The notes beneath the pieces are model-generated. The model did not search any database and was not told the origin of the DNA. It was given only the letters and a program-made list of their open reading frames with translations. The translations under genes and the position numbers were made by a program. DNA of 64,000 bases, from NCBI RefSeq assembly GCF_013623775.1, contig NZ_JABFAM010000003.1, positions 310,001-374,000 on the forward strand. The letters run 5' to 3'. This stretch comes from Rufibacter sp. XAAS-G3-1. Its GTDB lineage: Bacteria > Bacteroidota > Bacteroidia > Cytophagales > Hymenobacteraceae. Positions 631 through 12,197 of this stretch are shown piece by piece (the stretch's first letter is position 1; each line of letters starts with the position of its first letter).

Positions 631-1254
631 TTAATTTCCCCCCTTTACCTGTTTGATTTTCAAGGCCTGAGCTTTTACAAAATTCGCTACTGTAAGCCTA
701 TGAACGCATAATATTCGGGCGATAGCGCTGTAAGATATCTTTTTGTCTAATAACTCCTTGATTTCTTCTTCTTTCCCGGTAAGTTTTACATAAGATGCTT
801 TGCTGCCTTTGGGGCGGCCTAAGATTACACCTTCTGCTTTACGCCTTGCCAACGCTTCCTTGGTTCTTTGAGAAATCAGATTCCGTTCTATTTCTGCGGA
901 CAGTCCGAAAGCAAAGGCAAGAACTTTAGAATTGATGTTGTTTCCTAGCTCATAGCGCTCCTTGATAGTATAGACCTGAATATCTTTCTCCATGCAGTCG
1001 TGCAGTATCTTCATGATTTGCATCAGGTTCCGGCCAAGTCTTGAAAGTTCTGTCACTACCAGCAAGTCGCCTTTTTGCATGCGTTTCAGTAACGCTCCAA
1101 ATTTTCTATCCTCTAGTTTTTTGGTGGCGCTTATGGTTTCTTCTATCCACTCATTAATAAGTAGGTTCTGCTCTCTGGCGTACTTCTTTATCTCAAATTT
1201 CTGGTTTTGGGTGGTTTGCCTGTCTGTGCTTACCCGTATATAACCGTAGTTCAT
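631..1254 (-). CDS. Serine recombinase (invertase/resolvase family), probable inversion enzyme
   Basis: The 207-residue protein has the small serine recombinase layout. The N-terminal catalytic domain begins GYIRVSTDRQ, with the nucleophile Ser9. The active-site arginine motif TELSRLGRN has Arg72 and Arg75. A long E-helix segment (AFGLSAEIERNLISQRTKEALARRK) leads to a C-terminal helix-turn-helix (YSAIARILCVHRLTVANFV) that would bind the crossover site. Family members of this size (Hin, Gin, Pin) invert DNA between short inverted sites. The gene lies 102 bases outside a 134-bp perfect inverted repeat that brackets alternative 3' ends of the neighbouring methyltransferase gene, so it is the obvious candidate to flip that segment. 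The recombination activity is inferred. Confidence 0.93.
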   Translation of the reverse strand: MNYGYIRVSTDRQTTQNQKFEIKKYAREQNLLINEWIEETISATKKLEDRKFGALLKRMQKGDLLVVTELSRLGRNLMQIMKILHDCMEKDIQVYTIKERYELGNNINSKVLAFAFGLSAEIERNLISQRTKEALARRKAEGVILGRPKGSKASYVKLTGKEEEIKELLDKKISYSAIARILCVHRLTVANFVKAQALKIKQVKGGN

Positions 1255-1356
1255 GTTTTTACTGCTAAAAATAATAGCGGCAATTATTCTAAGCAGGTTT
1301 TAGATGTATTATTTAAGTATAAATATTACAGTTGCAGTTATCTCATAAGTTAAGCC

Positions 1357-1490
1357 AGCGATTATGTTCGGCAGCACAGCCACCGGACGTCTTTCGGGGC
1401 GGGCAGCAGCTGGGTGGTGCTCAACGAGGCGGAGATGCGCATCAAGGAAAAGATAGAGAAGGCCGGGGTACCTTTGAAGGATTGGGATGT
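1357..1490 (+). repeat. Left arm of 134-bp perfect inverted repeat (inversion site)
   Basis: Positions 1357-1490 are the exact reverse complement of 3007-3140 with no mismatch in my alignment. Identity ends abruptly at both edges. The arm encodes 45 residues of the methyltransferase (SDYVRQHSHR to KDWDV) in the same frame in both copies, so recombination anywhere in it keeps the reading frame. It is much longer than a serine-recombinase core site, so the actual crossover is probably a short sequence inside it. Confidence 0.93.
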
Positions 1491-2247
1491 TCAAATTAAC
1501 TATGGTATTAAGACGGGTTTTAATGAAGCCTTCATTATAGATGATGCCACAAGGAGAGAGTTGATTGAGAAATGTCCTAAAAGTGAAGAAATCATTCGAC
1601 CGATTCTTTTAGGTAGAAACATTAAAAGGTATTCTTACCAATGGGAAGGGCTATGGTTAATCAATGCTCACAATGGGTTAAAAAGCAAAAAAATTCCAAG
1701 AGTTGATGTTATAAATGATTATCCAGCAGTCTTCGAATTCCTAAGCAAATTTAGGGAAAAGCTGGAGTTACGTTTAGATAAAGGAGACCATTGGACAAAC
1801 CTTAGGAACTGCGCTTATTTAGATGAGTTTGATAAGCCTAAAGTAGCCTGGGGTAATCTTGCTCAACAATCTCAATTCACAATTATTCCTGATGGTTTTA
1901 TGATAAATGCTCCTTCTCCTTTTTTTGTAACTAATAATCTTTATTTAATTGCAATACTTAATTCAAAGCTTGGTGATTACTATATTAAATCTCTAGGTGT
2001 TTCAAGAAGTGGTGGGTATGTTGAATATAAGCCTATGTTTGTCGAAAACCTGCCCATACCTGTTCCGTCCAAAGAGGCACAAGAGCTTCTTACAGAGAAA
2101 GTGCAAAATATATTGTTAAAAAGAGAAGCTGGAGAGGAAACAATAAAGGAAGAAGTTGAAATCGACTCCATAGTTAGCCATTTGTACAATTTAACCATTG
2201 AAGAAAAGCAATTAATTGATTTATTAACCTTCAGACTTGCATATTAA
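1414..2247 (+). CDS. Silent alternative specificity-domain cassette of the methyltransferase gene
   Basis: The open frame starts in the inverted repeat (GTG at 1414; the frame is open back to 1354, where TAA at 1351-1353 closes it) and ends at 2247. It has no convincing start or promoter, so in this orientation it is probably not expressed. It encodes a TaqI-like C-terminal target-recognition domain: LLGRNIKRY, a WTNLRNCAY-like block, FDKPKVAW, then YLIAILNSKL and a helical tail (LPIPVPSKEAQELL). It aligns block for block with the last ~245 residues of the gene at 2274-5645 but differs strongly in sequence, as expected for a different DNA target. It faces that gene tail to tail with 26 bases between the stops. 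Inversion would fuse it in frame to the expressed N-terminal part. Confidence 0.85.
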   Translation: MVLNEAEMRIKEKIEKAGVPLKDWDVQINYGIKTGFNEAFIIDDATRRELIEKCPKSEEIIRPILLGRNIKRYSYQWEGLWLINAHNGLKSKKIPRVDVINDYPAVFEFLSKFREKLELRLDKGDHWTNLRNCAYLDEFDKPKVAWGNLAQQSQFTIIPDGFMINAPSPFFVTNNLYLIAILNSKLGDYYIKSLGVSRSGGYVEYKPMFVENLPIPVPSKEAQELLTEKVQNILLKREAGEETIKEEVEIDSIVSHLYNLTIEEKQLIDLLTFRLAY

Positions 2248-2273
2248 AAGAACTGATTTATTTATATGCAAGT

Positions 2274-5200
2274 CTAAAGTAAAGCATGTTCTATGTTCTC
2301 TATTTCCTCTTCTGTTAATTTAAAGAAATCATAAAAGTGACGGTCTATATTTTTTAGATTCTCTTGGTTTAGCTCTGAGATAACTTTATCAACTAAACAG
2401 TTTATTTTAGTCTCAAAATCCATACTTGGGTTTGGTACACAAATTTGATCAATGTAGATTTTTATCCATCTTCTTGTGCCTACTCCAGAAGTAGCTGCAA
2501 TTTTATCAAAATACCATTCGCATAATCGAGAATTTAAGTACGCCAGTAGATATTTCAAATGATCTCCTGTCATAAAGAAAATGGTGTTATTAAGATAGTA
2601 CCCCTTTGTATCAAGCGCAAATTTTGGTGAATCCGTCAATTCAATCCAAACTATTTTCTCCTTATCAAAATCGTTATAATAAGCCACATTATCTTGGATT
2701 TCAAACCATTTATAAGCACCTGGCTTTCTCCCTTGCTGATCATTATCCCCTTTAGGTTTTAAGAAGTCATAATTCTTTAATAAATATTCTTTAATAGATG
2801 GATATCTTTCGATGTCAATTCCTCTCCTAGTAAAAATCATCCACTGGTCAGCAAAATTGGCTCTATACTTTTTAATATCCCTGCCTCTTAAAATCGGTCG
2901 AATAATTTCGGCTGAATTTGGCGAAGCAGCAATTAATCTATCTTTAGTTGCTGTATCAATAATGAAGGCCTCGTTATAGCCTGTCAAAATTCCCCTGTAG
3001 ATATTGACATCCCAATCCTTCAAAGGTACCCCGGCCTTCTCTATCTTTTCCTTGATGCGCATCTCCGCCTCGTTGAGCACCACCCAGCTGCTGCCCGCCC
3101 CGAAAGACGTCCGGTGGCTGTGCTGCCGAACATAATCGCTCATATTATTTAGGCTGAACCCCTTGCTCAAAACACAAGTACTCACGTTATTCTGAAAAGG
3201 AGACTTTTCAGCAATCATAATGTTTGTGTCTACCGTTGCCGATTCAAACACCTGATAGCCGCCAAAGTCAATCAATGATAAAGGATTGGTATGGCTGGCA
3301 AAGTATGACCTCATTTTTTCACCATAACCTGCTCTCATCCATTTGTTAGAAGTAATATAGCTCAATACTCCTTTTTGCTTTAGAAGGCTAAACCCTTTCT
3401 CATAGAATAAACAGTAGATATCACCTGTACGGGCAAATGTTTCATAACCAACTTCTTGCAATGTATCAGCGGCTTTGCCCATACTTTGCAACTGAATATA
3501 AGGCGGATTCCCTATTATCACATCAAAGCCACCTTGCTCAAAAACATCCATAAAGTACAGGTGCCACAAGAAGTATGGGCGCTCATCGGTATCCTGAATC
3601 TTGAGTAGCTGGGTTTTGGTTTCTCGCAGTTGGGTTAAGTTGTTTTGCCAGGCTTCATATTTCTTTAATCCCGCTTTACTTAAATTAGCAGAGTTGCCTG
3701 ATTCATTAATTATGCGGTGCAGCTGGTTCTCGCGCAACTCAATGTTGTACTCAATGTGCTGCAATACTAGACTGTTTATTTCTTCGCGTATGCGCTTTTT
3801 CTCTTCACCGGCTTCAATGGTAAAGAATTGCTTAATCAGATTTTGTATTTTCTGGGTGGTGCGGGTTTGGGAGAACGTCATTTTAAGTTGGCTCTCCAGA
3901 ATGTTGCCAAACAAGTCTCGGGCTGGCTCTATCACCTGCACATCATTTTTGGTTTTACCCATTTGGCTCAGGTCAATGCCCATGTACTGTTCCAAAAGGC
4001 TATTGCCCTGCATTATCTTATAATCCAAATTAGGCAGAGGATGCGGGTTCAATTCCTCTACTACCAAAGAAAGCCAGAAACGTAATTGGGCAATGTCTAC
4101 CGCGCCTTTCTCCAAATCTACCCCGTAGATTGAGTTCTGGATGATGTTCTTTTTTACTTCGGCGGGTTTAAAATCTTTATTGGTTTTGAGGTAAGGATAG
4201 ATGAAACGTTTGGCCTCAAAAATCTCTTGCAGCATACCAATAGGAAACGCCCCTGAGCCAATGGCGGGGTCACATACTTTTATATCATCTAGCTTTTGGT
4301 TAAGCAGAAGCGCATTGTCTCTGTCTTGCAGGAAAGTAGAAACCGTATGGTTCCTGATAAACTGTTCAATGCTTGTTTCTCCCGCAAAAGTGTTGAGCAA
4401 ATACTGTATCAGGCTCTCTTTGCACATGTACTGCACAATCTCTTTGGGCGTGTAGAAAGCGCCTTTGTCGCGGTTGTCTTCCAGCAAGTTTTCAAAGATG
4501 TGGCCAAGCATTTCGGGGTCAATACCTACTTCGTGGTCTTCGGGGCTGTTCTCGTCTATGGTAAAGTTGTACTGTTCAAAAAACTCCAGTAAGTCTCTGA
4601 AAAAATCTACCGGGAAATCAACTTCTAACGTGGCCTTGTTCTTTTCAGGCTCAAATAAGCCGCCATTGAGGTAAGGTACCCTGGAGCCATTTAGTCTGCC
4701 ATTCAAACCTTTCACCTCAAACGCATCATTAGGTCGTTTGCTGTTGAGCGTATTAAAAAACAACGCGGTGAGGCATTTGCTATGAAAGTGTTCAGGCTCA
4801 GAAAAATCTTCAAACAGGCGTTGCATAAAGCGTGGCTCACCGTCTACCCAATCTTTTGAGGTAGGGGAACAGCCCATCCAACCTTTCTTTTGCAGGAAAT
4901 GCAGGAACACAATTCTGCCTAACAGTTTCTTTACAAAATCTCTGATTGGCTTTTCCTGCAGAACTCTCTTTTTGTCTTCTTTTTCCTCTAAACCTTTAGC
5001 AGCATCAATAAGTCTTTCCCTAAATGGATTTTCTTCATTGGCCAGGTGCTTCCAGAACTTTTCATATTGGGCTTTATAAGTTTTGAAAAAGTCTTTCTTT
5101 AGCGGCTCAACAGAAAACACTTCTTTCAGTTGCTTCAGGTTCACCTCACCTTTAGTTTTCTGGTCGGCTAGAGCCAAGAGGCGTTTGGAGGGTGTAGTGC

Positions 5201-5645
5201 AGGCCTCGTTGGGGCCGAGCAAATAGGTATAGCGCTTGGGCTTGGTTTCGCCTTTTATCAGTTCCCCAGTTTCTTCATTTATGCTGGCCTCTTTGGCTAT
5301 AAAGGAAAAACGGTAGTCAGGCTGGTTTTTATTGAAGAAGAACGCCAGGGTGCCATGTACAATGTTCTGATCAATAGGCTGGATGGCAATGTTCCTGAGT
5401 TCTTGCCGGTTGCGGCTAATGATAATGCTGTTATCAACCTCAATAATAATGATAGCCAATTGCTTGCCATCATCTAGCTTAACGGTGCCTACCTGCTGGC
5501 CTTCTATTACTCTATCATTCCCAGTAAATAAAAGCTCAGGTGTGCTGAAGTACTCTATTTTCTTAAAGAAAAATGGCAGAAGTTCTTTCCAGAGGTCAAA
5601 CTTAAATCTTTGCTGTAATGTGTGTTTAAGCTCTTTTTCCTTCAT
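2274..5645 (-). CDS. Eco57I/TaqI-like adenine methyltransferase, probable type IIG or split ATP-dependent RM enzyme, with phase-variable C-terminus
   Basis: The 1123-residue protein would methylate adenine in a specific DNA sequence. It carries GAFYTP near residue 386, SAM motif I DPAIGSGAF at 449-457 and the catalytic GNPPY at 692-696, followed by a TaqI-like C-terminal specificity domain (RGRDIKKY, LLAYLNSRL). Residues 836-880 are encoded by the 134-bp inverted repeat and residues 881-1123 by the invertible segment. Flipping would replace them with about 250 residues from the silent cassette. No nuclease motif is certain in the N-terminus; a hydrophobic strand IIIIEVDNS followed by SRNRQELR near 65-84 is the only candidate. 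It overlaps the upstream KilA-N gene by 4 bases (ATGA), so the two are translationally coupled. Confidence 0.92.
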   Translation of the reverse strand: MKEKELKHTLQQRFKFDLWKELLPFFFKKIEYFSTPELLFTGNDRVIEGQQVGTVKLDDGKQLAIIIIEVDNSIIISRNRQELRNIAIQPIDQNIVHGTLAFFFNKNQPDYRFSFIAKEASINEETGELIKGETKPKRYTYLLGPNEACTTPSKRLLALADQKTKGEVNLKQLKEVFSVEPLKKDFFKTYKAQYEKFWKHLANEENPFRERLIDAAKGLEEKEDKKRVLQEKPIRDFVKKLLGRIVFLHFLQKKGWMGCSPTSKDWVDGEPRFMQRLFEDFSEPEHFHSKCLTALFFNTLNSKRPNDAFEVKGLNGRLNGSRVPYLNGGLFEPEKNKATLEVDFPVDFFRDLLEFFEQYNFTIDENSPEDHEVGIDPEMLGHIFENLLEDNRDKGAFYTPKEIVQYMCKESLIQYLLNTFAGETSIEQFIRNHTVSTFLQDRDNALLLNQKLDDIKVCDPAIGSGAFPIGMLQEIFEAKRFIYPYLKTNKDFKPAEVKKNIIQNSIYGVDLEKGAVDIAQLRFWLSLVVEELNPHPLPNLDYKIMQGNSLLEQYMGIDLSQMGKTKNDVQVIEPARDLFGNILESQLKMTFSQTRTTQKIQNLIKQFFTIEAGEEKKRIREEINSLVLQHIEYNIELRENQLHRIINESGNSANLSKAGLKKYEAWQNNLTQLRETKTQLLKIQDTDERPYFLWHLYFMDVFEQGGFDVIIGNPPYIQLQSMGKAADTLQEVGYETFARTGDIYCLFYEKGFSLLKQKGVLSYITSNKWMRAGYGEKMRSYFASHTNPLSLIDFGGYQVFESATVDTNIMIAEKSPFQNNVSTCVLSKGFSLNNMSDYVRQHSHRTSFGAGSSWVVLNEAEMRIKEKIEKAGVPLKDWDVNIYRGILTGYNEAFIIDTATKDRLIAASPNSAEIIRPILRGRDIKKYRANFADQWMIFTRRGIDIERYPSIKEYLLKNYDFLKPKGDNDQQGRKPGAYKWFEIQDNVAYYNDFDKEKIVWIELTDSPKFALDTKGYYLNNTIFFMTGDHLKYLLAYLNSRLCEWYFDKIAATSGVGTRRWIKIYIDQICVPNPSMDFETKINCLVDKVISELNQENLKNIDRHFYDFFKLTEEEIENIEHALL
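3007..3140 (-). repeat. Right arm of 134-bp perfect inverted repeat, inside the methyltransferase gene
   Basis: This is the exact reverse complement of 1357-1490. It lies at the junction between the catalytic domain and the variable specificity domain. The 1516 bases between the arms hold only the two convergent 3' ends. Confidence 0.93.
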
Positions 5646-6460
5646 TTCAGTTTCTTGATAGCGCTTTGATGGTTCAGCAAAGATTGCATTTGGGTAATGG
5701 CCAATTGGTTGAGCTGCAATAACCGCTCAGATTGATCCAGGCCTTGATGGATAAGCATGGCATTAATGCTTTCCATGTTAGAAAGCACCACCAACTGTTC
5801 AATGGTGGCCTCGTCTCTGATGTTTCCTTTCTTGCCTGGATTTTGCTCCCGCCACTGCCGCGCGGTTTTCCCAAACAAGGCCATGTTCAAGACATCGGCT
5901 TCGTTGGCATAAATGGTAGAGGCCTGGCTTTTGTTTAAGGCACCCGGAATCAAATTTTCCTTGATGGCGTCCGTATGGATGTGATAGTTTACTTTGGTGA
6001 GGGTGCGCTGGAAATCCCACTCCAACTTTAGGCGGTCGCTTTCATCTTCTTTAAGCCGCTTAAATTCTTTAATCAGGTATATTTTAAACTCGGCACTAAT
6101 CCACATACCAAACTCAAAGGCGATATCAGAATGGCCATAGGTGCCACCGTACCTGCCTGCAGTAGCTTTTATGCCCACGGCATTAGTCTTCTCCACCCAT
6201 TCTTTTACGCTAATGCGGTAGCTGTTCAACCCTGCCTGGCTTTTAATTATGTCGAATTCGCCATAATTAAAATTTGGGTTATACACCGATTCCCAAATAC
6301 CCAGAAACTCCACTGTATTCCTATTCCTCAACCAATCAGAGATAAAATACTCTCCGTCTTTGGCTTTGAGCATATCTGTCAGCGAGATAAAATCACCTTC
6401 TCCTTGGTTCAGGATTGTGATTTCATTTCCCTGTACCTGTATAGATTTCTTCTTTGCCAT
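5642..6460 (-). CDS. KilA-N domain protein
   Basis: The 272-residue protein has a KilA-N domain in about its first half: SLTDMLKAKDGEYFISDWLRN, LGIWE, LNSYRISVKEWVEKTNA and SDIAFEFGMWISAEFKIYLIKEF. The C-terminal part is a separate helical region ending LLNHQSAIKKLK. KilA-N is a DNA-binding domain of phage and large DNA virus regulators. It is also found in Bacteroidetes defence loci next to helicases and methyltransferases. Here it sits 1 base after the helicase stop and overlaps the methyltransferase start by 4 bases, so it is a built-in operon member. Its role (DNA binding, regulation or restriction control) is not shown by the sequence. Confidence 0.9.
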   Translation of the reverse strand: MAKKKSIQVQGNEITILNQGEGDFISLTDMLKAKDGEYFISDWLRNRNTVEFLGIWESVYNPNFNYGEFDIIKSQAGLNSYRISVKEWVEKTNAVGIKATAGRYGGTYGHSDIAFEFGMWISAEFKIYLIKEFKRLKEDESDRLKLEWDFQRTLTKVNYHIHTDAIKENLIPGALNKSQASTIYANEADVLNMALFGKTARQWREQNPGKKGNIRDEATIEQLVVLSNMESINAMLIHQGLDQSERLLQLNQLAITQMQSLLNHQSAIKKLK

Positions 6461-6461
6461 A

Positions 6462-9400
6462 TTAAAGGCTAAAACTTTCTGTAATAATGATTTCAGGATT
6501 TAATACTCTTGCCCGTACTACTTTCTTCTCAACCTCTTGGTCTACTTCCTCATGCACCAAGGGATAAGCATTTAATATATCTATAATTTTTTCTAAGACA
6601 ATGGCTGGTTTTAAAGGGGCTTTTTTTAGGGCTCTCTGGAACTTGTTAATATCTCGCTGTAGATTCTGGAAACGTCCTAATCTAATAGCTTCTTTAGCCT
6701 TGAGAATGAGTACCCGTTCTTCTTCATTCACCAGGGGCAAATTTAAGATACCGTCTAAATAAGCATTGGCTTTCTTCTCATTAGGGCCTTGGGTGGTATC
6801 AATCTTTTTGTCTCTGGCTTTCTCTCTTTCCAGCAAATCAGAAAAAAGTAAAAGCCCGGCCTGTACCTGCTCATGGTGTTGGCTATGCAACGGTATAGCT
6901 TGTTCCAGCACATCTGCTTCAAAAATTTTAACCGTCTCCAAAAACGTAAGTTCTTCTGTCTCTTCGTTTGCTTTTACCTGAATAAAAGAATCGCGCTTGC
7001 TGTCTTTGATGTAGCAGATGGTACTTTGGTTCAGTTCCTTTTTCTTTCTGCCTACTCTGGCTCTAAAAGGCATGTTTTTGATTTGCTTGAACAGGCCCGG
7101 CCTTTTTTCTTTCAGGTCTCTTATCATCATCAGATAAGCCAGCTTCTCGTCTTTCTCTTCTTCTAGCTTTTTGTCAAATAAACCAAAGGTTTCTGTTTCT
7201 TCATCTGGTGAGTAAATTTGGCTGTCCTCGCCTAAAGCTGCATGAAATGCCTGAAGCTTCATGATGGCTTTTTTCTCCAGCTCAATGTCATTGTTAACTT
7301 TAGCCGTTGGGTAGAAATTGAACACGTGCACCTCATCGGCAGTGGAGCCAATTCTGTTCACCCGGCCAATGCGTTGCATTAATCTGGTGGAGTTCCAAGG
7401 CGTGTCATAGTTGACAATCACGTTAGACCGGTGCAGGTTTACTCCTTCTGCTAGAACTTCAGTTGTTAGAATAATTTTATAAACGTCTTCTTTTTCTCCA
7501 GCATAATTCGCATCAAAGTTTTTCCGGATGGTGGGCATACGGTCTTTGCGCGTTTTGCTGTCAACTGAAATAAGGTTTTCAGAAATGTATTTGGGCAACT
7601 CTTCCTCTAAATAAGCGGTAGTCTCTTTGCTCTCAGAAAACACTACCAATTTAGATGTTGGGTTAATTTTACTATCTAACAAGATATTTTGCAGGTAGTG
7701 AATGAACACCTCTAATTTAGGGTCTTGTTTTACCTTGGCCCATTCACCGCAAAGCCCCTGCAATAACTGAAGGTCTTTCTGGAGCCCTGGAAAAAAGTTG
7801 TATTCAAAATCATCTGGTTCGCAAATTTCAATGGTTGGGTCTTCAATGGATTGCTCTAATACCAAGTTCAAAAGTTCCTCTTCCCTGCCTTCGTTTATCA
7901 TATCAGAAACCGGCAGATTGGGTGCAATAAAGATTTTGCCGTTTTCAAACATGGTTACCATGGCTTCGGTAGCTTTCATAAAGCGGTGCAAAGACTTTTT
8001 AAACGCATGAAAGCTACTATCAATACGCTTTACCAAAAGCGTTTTCATGATTTTAGCCAATTGCGCTGAAATCATGTCTGCTTGCTTATACTTGTTCTTT
8101 TTATGGGGCTTCAAAAACCCGATAGCACGGTACCGGTTATACGTCAATCCTTCCGTCTCATGGCTTAACACCTTTATGGTAATGTCATACAAATCTTCAA
8201 GATGCGGTTCTAAAACATATAGAATTTTTTTAGGTTGTTTCACCACTGGAAAGGTGATTCCTTGGTTTATCAGGTCTTTAGAATAAAGCTCATGGGCCTG
8301 CAAATCTGTGCGGGTACGGCGTACAGTTAATGGCTCTATTACCTTGGTTCTTATTCTTTCATAAATCTGTTTTACCCCTTTCTGAACTTTGGCAATGTCT
8401 GTTTCATGCTTAATTTTTTTATAAGCATCTATCTGCCCTCTAAAGAAGTTCTGTAGGTTTCCTGTTTCCAAAGTAGATTCTTTGCTGTTCTGAAACAGAT
8501 ACACCTGGTTGGCAATGTCTTCTGGGCGGTTGTTCAAAGGGGTGGCAGAGACCAACATAACTTTTTTAGCTACAGTTGTTCCGTCTGGCAAAACCCTCCT
8601 AGTTGGTGTTTTACAAATCTTTTGCAAGTCATTGTACATGCCTGCCGTATCTGACCTGAACTTATGTGCTTCATCTACAATAATTAAATCATAGATAGTA
8701 GCATCACGCACCTTATGAAGGCTACCATTGGTAACAATCTTCACATTATCCAGATTGAATTTCTCAATAGTTTCAATCCAGTTCTCCTTTAAGGCAGGAG
8801 GTACAATAATTAAAGTTCTGGAACGATGCTCTGGAAAACCATTGGTATAGAAAAACTTCTTAGCAATCAAAGTAGAGACAATGGTTTTGCCCAGCCCCAC
8901 TACATCGGCCAGAAAGAAACCATTGTGCTTCATCATTTTGGTAAACCCATCGTTTACAGCATCTACTTGGTAAGAAAGCCTTTTAAAGCCTTTGGGTAAA
9001 TCAGAGATGGAGTTAGGGTCAAACTCAATACTCTTACCGAAATATTCTACCAAGAATTTGAGGTAGATTTCATACGGCGTATAGTTGTCATTCAGATAGG
9101 TTTCTTTCTGTAGCTTTTCTATGTTGTCTATGTCAACCGGTACTGCCTCTTCCCATAACTTCTCAAATGTTTGCGTGGCAAAATCAATGTCAGAGTTATC
9201 CCTTAGCTCAACATTAAACTCAAAATTCTTAGAAAGGCCTGCATCTGTCAGGTTACTAGAGCCCGTAATGACTGATCCATACCCGTGGTCGTGCTTCACC
9301 TCTTCCCTGAAAATATAAATCTTGGCGTGTATATTCTGCTTGGGATGTATCTTGATTTTTACTTTACCAGTGACAATGTCCCGAATTAGCTGCAGCATGC

Positions 9401-9722
9401 CCGCTTCCACGGTCTTGTCATAAGCCGCTTCCTGAATATTCTTCTTAATTTCTTGAAAGAACTCTTCTTGTGCTTTTTCAGCATCTCCATCAAACAGAAC
9501 ACCTTGCTGGTTAGCTTGGTAGACTAAATAGTCAATGTTTATGCCTACCAGTATTCTTATCTCCTGCGCTTTCTCAACAAACTCTCTTATTTGAAAATAT
9601 CCTGAAGCTCTGAAGTAACCTACTAAAGCATCTAGAAAATAAATGTTTTTGTGTTTAAAAATTCCTTCTATCTTTTTTAGAAGGGTGTTTTGTTCTTCGT
9701 TCGTAAAAAACTTTGTACTCAT
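6462..9722 (-). CDS. PLD-like nuclease / SNF2-family helicase fusion, putative restriction effector
   Basis: The 1086-residue protein has an N-terminal phospholipase-D-like domain (IHAKIYIF at 131-138, then TGSSNLTD at 153-160; a variant of HKD without an obvious Asp). A superfamily 2 SNF2 ATPase follows: Walker A DVVGLGKT 273-280, DEAH 350-353, SATPLNN 392-398, and motif VI QRIGRVNRIG 783-792. Such fusions are expected to translocate along DNA and cut or displace it. It is the first gene of the operon with KilA-N and the methyltransferase. I infer that it supplies the ATP-driven restriction half while the methyltransferase marks self DNA. No HsdR-type PD-(D/E)XK motif was seen. Confidence 0.9.
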   Translation of the reverse strand: MSTKFFTNEEQNTLLKKIEGIFKHKNIYFLDALVGYFRASGYFQIREFVEKAQEIRILVGINIDYLVYQANQQGVLFDGDAEKAQEEFFQEIKKNIQEAAYDKTVEAGMLQLIRDIVTGKVKIKIHPKQNIHAKIYIFREEVKHDHGYGSVITGSSNLTDAGLSKNFEFNVELRDNSDIDFATQTFEKLWEEAVPVDIDNIEKLQKETYLNDNYTPYEIYLKFLVEYFGKSIEFDPNSISDLPKGFKRLSYQVDAVNDGFTKMMKHNGFFLADVVGLGKTIVSTLIAKKFFYTNGFPEHRSRTLIIVPPALKENWIETIEKFNLDNVKIVTNGSLHKVRDATIYDLIIVDEAHKFRSDTAGMYNDLQKICKTPTRRVLPDGTTVAKKVMLVSATPLNNRPEDIANQVYLFQNSKESTLETGNLQNFFRGQIDAYKKIKHETDIAKVQKGVKQIYERIRTKVIEPLTVRRTRTDLQAHELYSKDLINQGITFPVVKQPKKILYVLEPHLEDLYDITIKVLSHETEGLTYNRYRAIGFLKPHKKNKYKQADMISAQLAKIMKTLLVKRIDSSFHAFKKSLHRFMKATEAMVTMFENGKIFIAPNLPVSDMINEGREEELLNLVLEQSIEDPTIEICEPDDFEYNFFPGLQKDLQLLQGLCGEWAKVKQDPKLEVFIHYLQNILLDSKINPTSKLVVFSESKETTAYLEEELPKYISENLISVDSKTRKDRMPTIRKNFDANYAGEKEDVYKIILTTEVLAEGVNLHRSNVIVNYDTPWNSTRLMQRIGRVNRIGSTADEVHVFNFYPTAKVNNDIELEKKAIMKLQAFHAALGEDSQIYSPDEETETFGLFDKKLEEEKDEKLAYLMMIRDLKEKRPGLFKQIKNMPFRARVGRKKKELNQSTICYIKDSKRDSFIQVKANEETEELTFLETVKIFEADVLEQAIPLHSQHHEQVQAGLLLFSDLLEREKARDKKIDTTQGPNEKKANAYLDGILNLPLVNEEERVLILKAKEAIRLGRFQNLQRDINKFQRALKKAPLKPAIVLEKIIDILNAYPLVHEEVDQEVEKKVVRARVLNPEIIITESFSL

Positions 9723-11472: not shown

Positions 11473-12117
11473 ATGACAGACTTTCTCCAGGTTTCATGGT
11501 CAGAATTGTTTTCCAGCCCCGAAAACATGATCCGGTACGGCGGCCTCACGCTTATTCTCCTTGTGGTTTTTGTGGAAACGGGCTTGCTCATTGGCTTGGT
11601 TATTCCCGGCGGAGACTCCCTTTTGCTGGCTACGGGTCTGTTGGCGGGTGCCGATGTGCTGCAGGTGCCGGTGGGTGTGCTTCTGGCCAGCATGACAGCG
11701 GCCGGCGTGGCCGGAGACCTGCTGGGGTTTTCCATTGGCCGCAAGATGGGCAAAAAGCTCTACCATAAAGAAGATACATGGTACTTCAAACGCAAAAACC
11801 TGGATCGGGCCGAAAAATTCTACCGCGAGAAAGGGAAATCGGCTATTGTGCTGGGCAAGTTTGTACCGGTGGTGCGTACGTTCAACCCGCTGTTGGCCGG
11901 GGTAACGGGCATGACCCTGGGCAGGTTCTTGCTGCTGAGTTTGATGGGCACCGCCCTCTGGATTTGCTCTCTGGTGCTGGCCAGCTATTACCTGGGGCAG
12001 CAGTTTCCGCAGTTAAAAGACTACTTGCATTACGCTATCCCGGTTATTATTCTCCTGTCTATTCTGCCCGGTATTGTTCAGTACCTGAAAGAGCGGAAAA
12101 AGGAAAGCAACACGTGA
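11473..12117 (+). CDS. DedA family membrane protein
   Basis: The 214-residue protein has about five hydrophobic segments. It carries the DedA/VTT signatures: FVETGLLIGLVIPGGDSLLLATGLLA near residues 33-60, then a helical loop with GKFVPVVRTFNPLLAGVTGM (arginine and proline of the second re-entrant motif), and a terminal membrane helix (YAIPVIILLSILPGI). DedA proteins are inner-membrane transporters or flippases that carry undecaprenyl phosphate or phospholipids and depend on the proton-motive force. The gene stands alone. Confidence 0.92.
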   Translation: MTDFLQVSWSELFSSPENMIRYGGLTLILLVVFVETGLLIGLVIPGGDSLLLATGLLAGADVLQVPVGVLLASMTAAGVAGDLLGFSIGRKMGKKLYHKEDTWYFKRKNLDRAEKFYREKGKSAIVLGKFVPVVRTFNPLLAGVTGMTLGRFLLLSLMGTALWICSLVLASYYLGQQFPQLKDYLHYAIPVIILLSILPGIVQYLKERKKESNT

Positions 12118-12197
12118 ACTGTTTTCCCCTTCAGTTCCTGTTTTTGGCCTGTTTTCGGGAAAACACCGTATAAATACCAAAACTACGCTATATAACT

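Follow-up and report, generated by a model that had tools for sequence, protein, structure and literature searches.

The Mpi protein of Bacteroides fragilis is a master invertase that flips many promoters. An inversion of pglX with an adjacent recombinase was reportedly described by Goldfarb in 2015, and a 2023 survey by Milman, Yelin and Kishony reportedly listed Type II restriction-modification (RM) systems among the targets of inversion, validated the inversions with long reads, and included a Type II RM gene whose coding 3' part is swapped against a silent partial copy. The exchange of specificity by DNA inversion is well known for the hsdS genes of Type I RM systems, with SpnD39III and S. 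suis as examples (Atack 2020, PMC7394358), and phase variation of pglX is reported as common (PMC11341690). Here, we describe a locus in a 64,000-nucleotide stretch of the Rufibacter sp. XAAS-G3-1 genome (contig C13:310001-374000 of a 5.30-Mb assembly in 73 contigs), referred to as the window, or as W when it is compared with other loci. This locus is very probably a two-state DNA-inversion switch that exchanges the specificity domain of an adenine methyltransferase (MTase).

Organization of the probable inversion locus

A sequence-only reading of the window had proposed a perfect 134-bp inverted repeat with its right arm inside the MTase frame just before the specificity domain, a left arm that opens a start-less cassette for a second TaqI-like domain, converging stop codons 26 bases apart, a serine recombinase gene 102 bases outside the repeat, and an intact inversion product of about 1131 residues. 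Each of these features was recovered at exactly these coordinates (Table 1). The arms were identical at 134/134 bases, the right arm covered residues 836-880, the cassette frame opened directly after a stop codon and carried its own TaqI_C domain, and the gap between the recombinase gene and the left arm spanned positions 1255-1356. In-silico inversion of the segment gave an intact enzyme of 1131 aa in which residue 881 was the first to be altered. The cassette is oriented head to head with the specificity region of the MTase, on the plus versus the minus strand, and the homology of the arms continues beyond the perfect 134 bp, to 186 nt at 91%. On a uniform-base estimate, about 7e-74 perfect repeats of this length would be expected by chance in 8 kb, and the arm was present in two copies only in the whole genome.

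Table 1. Features of the probable inversion locus and of the adjoining genes, in window coordinates.
Feature	Position	Strand	Remarks
Mpi-family small serine recombinase, presumed invertase	631..1254	-	207 aa; Pfam Resolvase 1.2e-34
Start-less cassette, alternative TaqI-like specificity domain in the MTase frame	1354..2247	+	TaqI_C 5.4e-11; in-frame stop just upstream
Left repeat arm	1357..1490	+	Outer edge AGCGATTATGTTCGG, the presumed crossover site
Presumed invertible segment	1357..3140	.	1784 bp; in-silico inversion keeps the frame
Gap between converging stop codons	2248..2273	.	26 bp
Eco57I/Type IIG-like N6-adenine methyltransferase with C-terminal TaqI_C, expressed copy	2274..5645	-	1123 aa; Pfam Eco57I 1.5e-42, TaqI_C 1.4e-18
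Right repeat arm	3007..3140	-	Within the MTase gene, between catalytic and specificity domains
KilA-N protein, accessory, PADLOC PDC-S22 candidate	5642..6460	-	Between helicase and MTase
PLD(HKD)-SNF2 helicase, presumed restriction partner	6462..9722	-	PLDc_2, SNF2, Helicase_C

In the mechanism that we propose, the Mpi-family recombinase would recombine two inverted short sites (edge AGCGATTATGT) that bound the repeat on the outside, the first within the MTase gene between the catalytic and specificity domains and the second at the start of the start-less cassette. Inversion would then set the cassette domain in frame after the unchanged 880 N-terminal residues, and the former specificity domain would be kept as a silent cassette. 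The two specificity domains presumably read different targets.

With a score of 327 bits, the recombinase exceeded the cut-off of 272 set for the NCBIfam model NF009949 ("master DNA invertase Mpi family"), and it was the only one of nine matches in the genome to do so. The 17-base outer edge of the repeat was found in exactly two genome copies, both at the window locus, and a search allowing three mismatches added five further places, versus three for a reversed control. Because the only match above the cut-off and both exact copies of the site are found here, the recombinase and its site look like a dedicated and local pair, and the enzyme presumably acts on the site of this repeat.

Motif alignment and the TaqI_C match identified the MTase as a protein with N6-adenine motifs and a fused target recognition domain (TRD), as in Type IIG enzymes. 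NPPY (residues 713-716), D459-P-A and G463-S-G were invariant in 51/51 aligned rows, and no E-x-K was present at the single N-terminal candidate position examined, E69-V70-D71. The structure model, with a predicted local distance difference test (pLDDT) score of 83, resembled CamA and M.BseCI, at a Z of about 25 over roughly residues 395-1110, and also PglX, at a Z of 16 over residues 179-1120; the N-terminal 180 residues were scarcely covered by structure matches. Type I M chains aligned up to about residue 863, and the chains 7vs4_C and 2y7c_A, which we take to be S subunits of Type I M2S complexes, aligned from about 863-867 to 1109. The presumed recombination site codes for residues 836-839, in the linker between the MTase fold and the specificity fold; given this position between the M-like and S-like parts, a flip would exchange what the S subunit contributes in Type I systems. 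A model of the cassette alone was poor (pLDDT 72, predicted template modeling score 0.50) and gave weak structure matches, and was left unused.

Cassettes and recombinases in related loci

A search for the MTase in 59 genomes, including that of the window, gave matches in 23, and of 202 loci from the GTDB species collection 80 were kept. The total came to 93 loci besides the window, including thirteen larger regions, and to 94 loci with W. Self-comparison identified an inverted C-terminal coding copy downstream in 22/94 loci (W included), and this list of cassettes was settled before recombinases were searched for. A homologue of the window recombinase lay downstream in 22/22 cassette loci, mostly near the cassette and 1.2 kb off in L115, and in one of the 57 cassette-less loci that could be judged (L060). 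Fourteen loci with less than 1.5 kb of 3' flank were dropped from this count, as was L024, which is one contig with L040 and was also dropped from the aligned-site count given below. The association gave a Fisher p of 1.2e-18, a value that is only indicative since the loci share ancestry. At L060:12300-13089 (Bacteroides reticulotermitis) the truncated MTase frame breaks off shortly after the start of the TRD and continues into the recombinase; neither the cassette nor the greater part of the TRD is present, through deletion or assembly.

The cassette loci were assigned to two architectures. In architecture A (12 loci: W, L027, L028, L043, L056, L057, L058, L059, L082, L083, L089 and L107) the cassette was homologous to the specificity domain plus the linker. 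In architecture B (10 loci: L062, L064, L084, L095, L097, L100, L105, L106, L111 and L115) the repeat was homologous to the region from query residue 703 onward, which codes for GFDIVIGNPPY, and the cassette would, judging by this homology, substitute everything from the NPPY region onward. Perfect blocks of at least 20 bases lay over the GFDIVIGNPPY coding sequence in 8/10 B loci (not in L062 and L064) and reached the N-P codons in five of them (L084, L097, L105, L106 and L115). L105 was counted as B although neither of its arms falls within the main MTase frame; both are situated between two cassette-like stretches. An additional MTase-like reverse frame ahead of the recombinase in L095, L106 and L111 suggests that these loci perhaps carry two cassettes. 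The recombinases of B loci belonged to one clade in 9/10 cases. Similar switch layouts were found in several bacterial phyla. The sequence-only reading had considered a TRD flip within a single enzyme unusual; with 12 of the 94 loci (window included) sharing the architecture and 10 having a sister one, the window locus is not a lone oddity.

A further 17 recombinase regions were taken from order-level genomes. An MTase with a cassette was present in five of them (L146, L147, L150, L151 and L152, with the MTase of L150 split over two frames), and a cassette-like frame lay near the contig end in L148. The stretch taken contained no MTase homologue in 11/17 regions, including L145, which reaches a contig end, and L149, which has a helicase homologue; the recombinase family thus serves other jobs too. 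On the Campylobacter plasmids L138-L141, an Mpi-like recombinase was observed near an inverse autotransporter gene, possibly another invertible locus. No annotated MTase was found in the stretches taken from these plasmids and from a Treponema saccharophilum plasmid.

Exchanged arrangements in relatives

One case of exchange was provided by two Lactococcus dairy plasmids, pJM1F (L136) and pUCCL629A (L137), each with a helicase, an N-6 MTase and a convergent cassette; their recombinases (WP_021164920.1) are identical to each other and 67% identical to that of the window. The plasmids were collinear, with 92.3% identity over 5954 bp up to the specificity region of the MTase and 91% on the recombinase side. 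The expressed copy of pJM1F matched the cassette of pUCCL629A (99.2% over 496 bp), and the cassette of pJM1F matched the expressed copy of pUCCL629A (85.2% over 535 bp). In a base-by-base comparison, the agreement between the two expressed copies included GAGCGATTATGT and all that precedes it; from GAGCG onward the expressed copy of pJM1F agreed with the cassette of pUCCL629A, which places the exchange point within 12 bases. The two plasmids thus document a natural flip of this kind. Upstream of the site, the two cassettes were identical over the 80-odd bases compared. Two other Lactococcus plasmids (L143 and L144) have the MTase and the helicase without cassette and recombinase, and may be locked descendants or ancestors.

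A second exchanged arrangement was identified between W and L027, from a second species of the same genus (G012). The expressed TRD of W was 61% identical to the L027 cassette, and the W cassette 54% identical to the expressed TRD of L027, compared with 36% and 35% for like positions; beyond TRD residue 90 the identities were 65/55% crossed versus 29/24% straight. The MTase bodies of these two loci were just 31% identical over the part that aligned, from which it follows that the TRD pair has also moved between enzymes. L027 and L107 were likewise crossed (54/57% versus 41/36% straight), with bodies 65% and recombinases 85% identical, and L083 and L107 were straight (69/72%). Scoring of crossed versus straight pairs on the first 60 TRD residues alone was mostly undecided because that part is conserved, and whole-TRD and C-terminal comparisons were used instead.

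Relatives with the inverted arrangement, for which the sequence-only reading had called, are thus available in the Lactococcus plasmids and in the W/L027 pair. Together with the presence of the recombinase in every cassette locus and in only one of the 57 judgeable cassette-less ones, they make the inversion switch well supported as a reading of the locus; that the segment flips in the source strain itself is what we infer from them.

A probable recombination site

In architecture A, similarity between the two copies sets in sharply at AGCG[A/T/G]TT, after which up to about 20 bases or more are alike. The window repeat begins with AGCGATTATGT, which is present at both of its outer ends. AGCG[A/T/G]TT was found in both copies at the repeat edge in 17/19 A loci, that is, in 11 of the first 12 and in six of the seven later ones (L146, L147, L150, L152, L136 and L137). 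Perfect identity at the edge extended over 21 bp in L146 and 22 bp in L083, where the whole repeats were just 75% and 70% alike, respectively. As the pattern had been picked after inspection of the loci, the aligned position was checked in 88/93 genes, frames below 850 aa (L026, L030, L073, L109 and L114) being dropped. AGCG[AT]TT was present there in 10/12 A genes, 0/10 B genes and 2/66 cassette-less loci, the latter being L060, where the recombinase is present, and L061, where the contig ends. This distribution is what a DNA-level site inside a coding sequence should produce. The earlier proposal of an inversion at the repeat was supported, with the amendment that the recombination site is probably the repeat edge of about 20 bp and not the whole 134 bp.

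Alternative explanations and points against the switch

Several observations weigh against a plain inversion switch. The inverted orientation was not seen in the assembly, and no further contig of the genome carried the arm. The site was absent in 2/19 A loci (L089 and L151), and to the left of AGCG the copies are unlike, with no left half-site recognizable. Amongst the 12 pairs above the whole-TRD threshold of 50%, four were crossed, seven straight and one undecided, and the crossed pairs outside Lactococcus (W-L027, L083-L027 and L107-L027) all involve L027, and therefore represent one exchanged arrangement, not three. Finally, the exchanged blocks of the Lactococcus plasmids stop inside the TRD, so that other recombination must also have acted. 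A related pattern was observed in Treponema, where L059 and L082 (bodies 86% identical) were crossed over the first 60 TRD residues (82/80% versus 72/73%) and straight over the whole TRD (55/51% versus 42/44%); a clean inversion was rejected for this pair, which we read as having two exchange points. Additionally, L028:9978-10261 and 11913-12196 form a 284-bp perfect inverted identity within the TRD, away from the recombinase site, a sign of gene conversion or of a second exchange point. The L028 identity, the Lactococcus blocks and the crossed N-terminal part in Treponema make a second, homologous exchange inside the TRD likely.

Since homologous exchange does occur at these loci, as the L028 identity and the reshuffled TRD parts indicate, RecA-type recombination over the 134-bp identity might itself invert the segment, with the serine recombinase as a bystander. 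The identical arms of the window, and the even longer identities in L027 (270 bp), L028 (284 bp) and L058 (300 bp), speak for this. However, L083, L107, L136, L137 and L146 have at most a short edge identity, with about 68-75% beyond it, the Lactococcus breakpoint is confined to 12 nt, and the recombinase accompanies the cassette in 22/22 loci, which leaves this explanation unlikely. Less probable still is that the cassette is a silent gene fragment left by an old inverted duplication, with switching lost. It would account for the single orientation seen in the assembly and for relatives that lack both the cassette and the recombinase, such as Lactococcus L143 and L144. Against it, the cassette has an uninterrupted frame that connects, in phase, to a complete domain, neither arm differs from the other at any base, the recombinase has an intact reading frame, and the two domains are in exchanged places among relatives. 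The draft state of the assembly, with its 73 contigs, could suggest an artefact; the architecture recurs in assemblies unrelated to this one, among them circular plasmid records and records titled complete chromosome (e.g., Treponema L059 and L082), which makes this a negligible concern.

Beyond the inversion switch of the window, a wider reading is offered tentatively, as possible rather than probable. The Mpi-type recombinase, the AGCGWTT site and the TRD pair may form a mobile specificity-flipping module that was inserted into different MTase bodies in at least five phyla. It would exist in two forms, cutting either at the MTase-TRD linker or within the GFDIVIGNPPY coding DNA, and would combine site-specific inversion with homologous exchange of half TRDs and, in the second form, with extra cassettes, a combination that could take one defence MTase through more than two specificities.

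Neighboring genes and possible consequences of a flip

The helicase has the motifs HxK..GSSN at 132, GLGKT at 276 and DEAH at 350, and the genes for the helicase, the KilA-N protein and the MTase all lie on the minus strand with start and stop codons almost touching. A helicase homologue was present upstream of the MTase in 18/22 cassette loci; it was not found in L027 and L083, L107 starts at a contig end, and in L089 the helicase is downstream. The KilA-N protein was present in 4/94 loci. No DISARM (DrmA/DrmB/DrmC) or BREX family was detected in the 19 flanking open reading frames (ORFs; 10 + 9) above the size limits of the scan. Two PglZ matches in the genome (C47:69775-70353 and C8:22283-22414) lie on contigs other than C13 and possibly belong to other defence systems. 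Elsewhere in the window, positions 291-340 contain two 22-nt arms that are 91% complementary around a 6-nt loop.

The MTase and the PLD-SNF2 helicase would work as an RM-like defence pair, in which the MTase presumably provides the specificity and the helicase the restriction. A flip in such a pair would alter the methylation target and probably the restriction target too. If this is true, a target switch of an MTase tied to its restriction partner would alter the definition of self DNA, and a clonal population could keep several immunities and several methylomes simultaneously. It also raises the question of how a cell gets through the first rounds that follow a flip. With a short site that is defined, a small recombinase and two naturally occurring plasmids from a dairy organism, these loci make the mechanism directly testable.

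Comparison with known systems

The window recombinase belongs to the family of Mpi of B. fragilis by its score above the NF009949 cut-off; in contrast to the many promoters of that system, the exact site is found here at one locus only and lies inside coding sequence. The pairing of an SNF2 helicase with an adenine MTase is reminiscent of class 1 DISARM (DrmD + DrmMI), and the MTase resembles DrmMI. However, the helicase reached 157 bits against the DrmD model, far below its cut-off of 610, the DrmA, DrmB and DrmC families were absent from the 19 ORFs scanned, and the helicase here carries the PLD itself.

With BREX pglX the locus shares the kind of component that is varied, a specificity-bearing adenine MTase of a multi-gene defence system, as well as the PglX fold. 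It differs in its partner, which is the PLD-SNF2 helicase, and in that the PglZ matches of the host lie on other contigs and no pglZ is part of the cluster. Against the curated PglX models the MTase scored 107.6 bits for BREX-1, where the cut-off is 500, and lower for the other listed types.

Among the titles listed by the literature search, none pointed to serine-recombinase inversion of an Eco57I/TaqI_C methyltransferase; most subscription papers fall outside its coverage, and this is no proof of absence. In the accessible parts of the literature searched, no description was found of the site, the Mpi-type recombinase, the Lactococcus pair or the two architectures.

The closest parallel is provided by the inverting Type I hsdS genes, which share with this locus inverted repeats in specificity sequences, a silent copy, a local recombinase and a switch of methylation specificity (PMC7394358). 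In those systems the switch acts on an S subunit of its own, which has two TRDs; here, the TRD is not a separate HsdS subunit but the C-terminus of the MTase, to which TaqI_C is fused, and a small serine invertase from the Mpi family takes the place of the recombinase. Recombinase-driven exchange of an MTase specificity domain is a kind of event with precedents in Type I hsdS, in BREX pglX in the form of phase variation, and reportedly in Type II systems, and the loci described here extend specificity-inversion layouts beyond the Type I hsdS genes.

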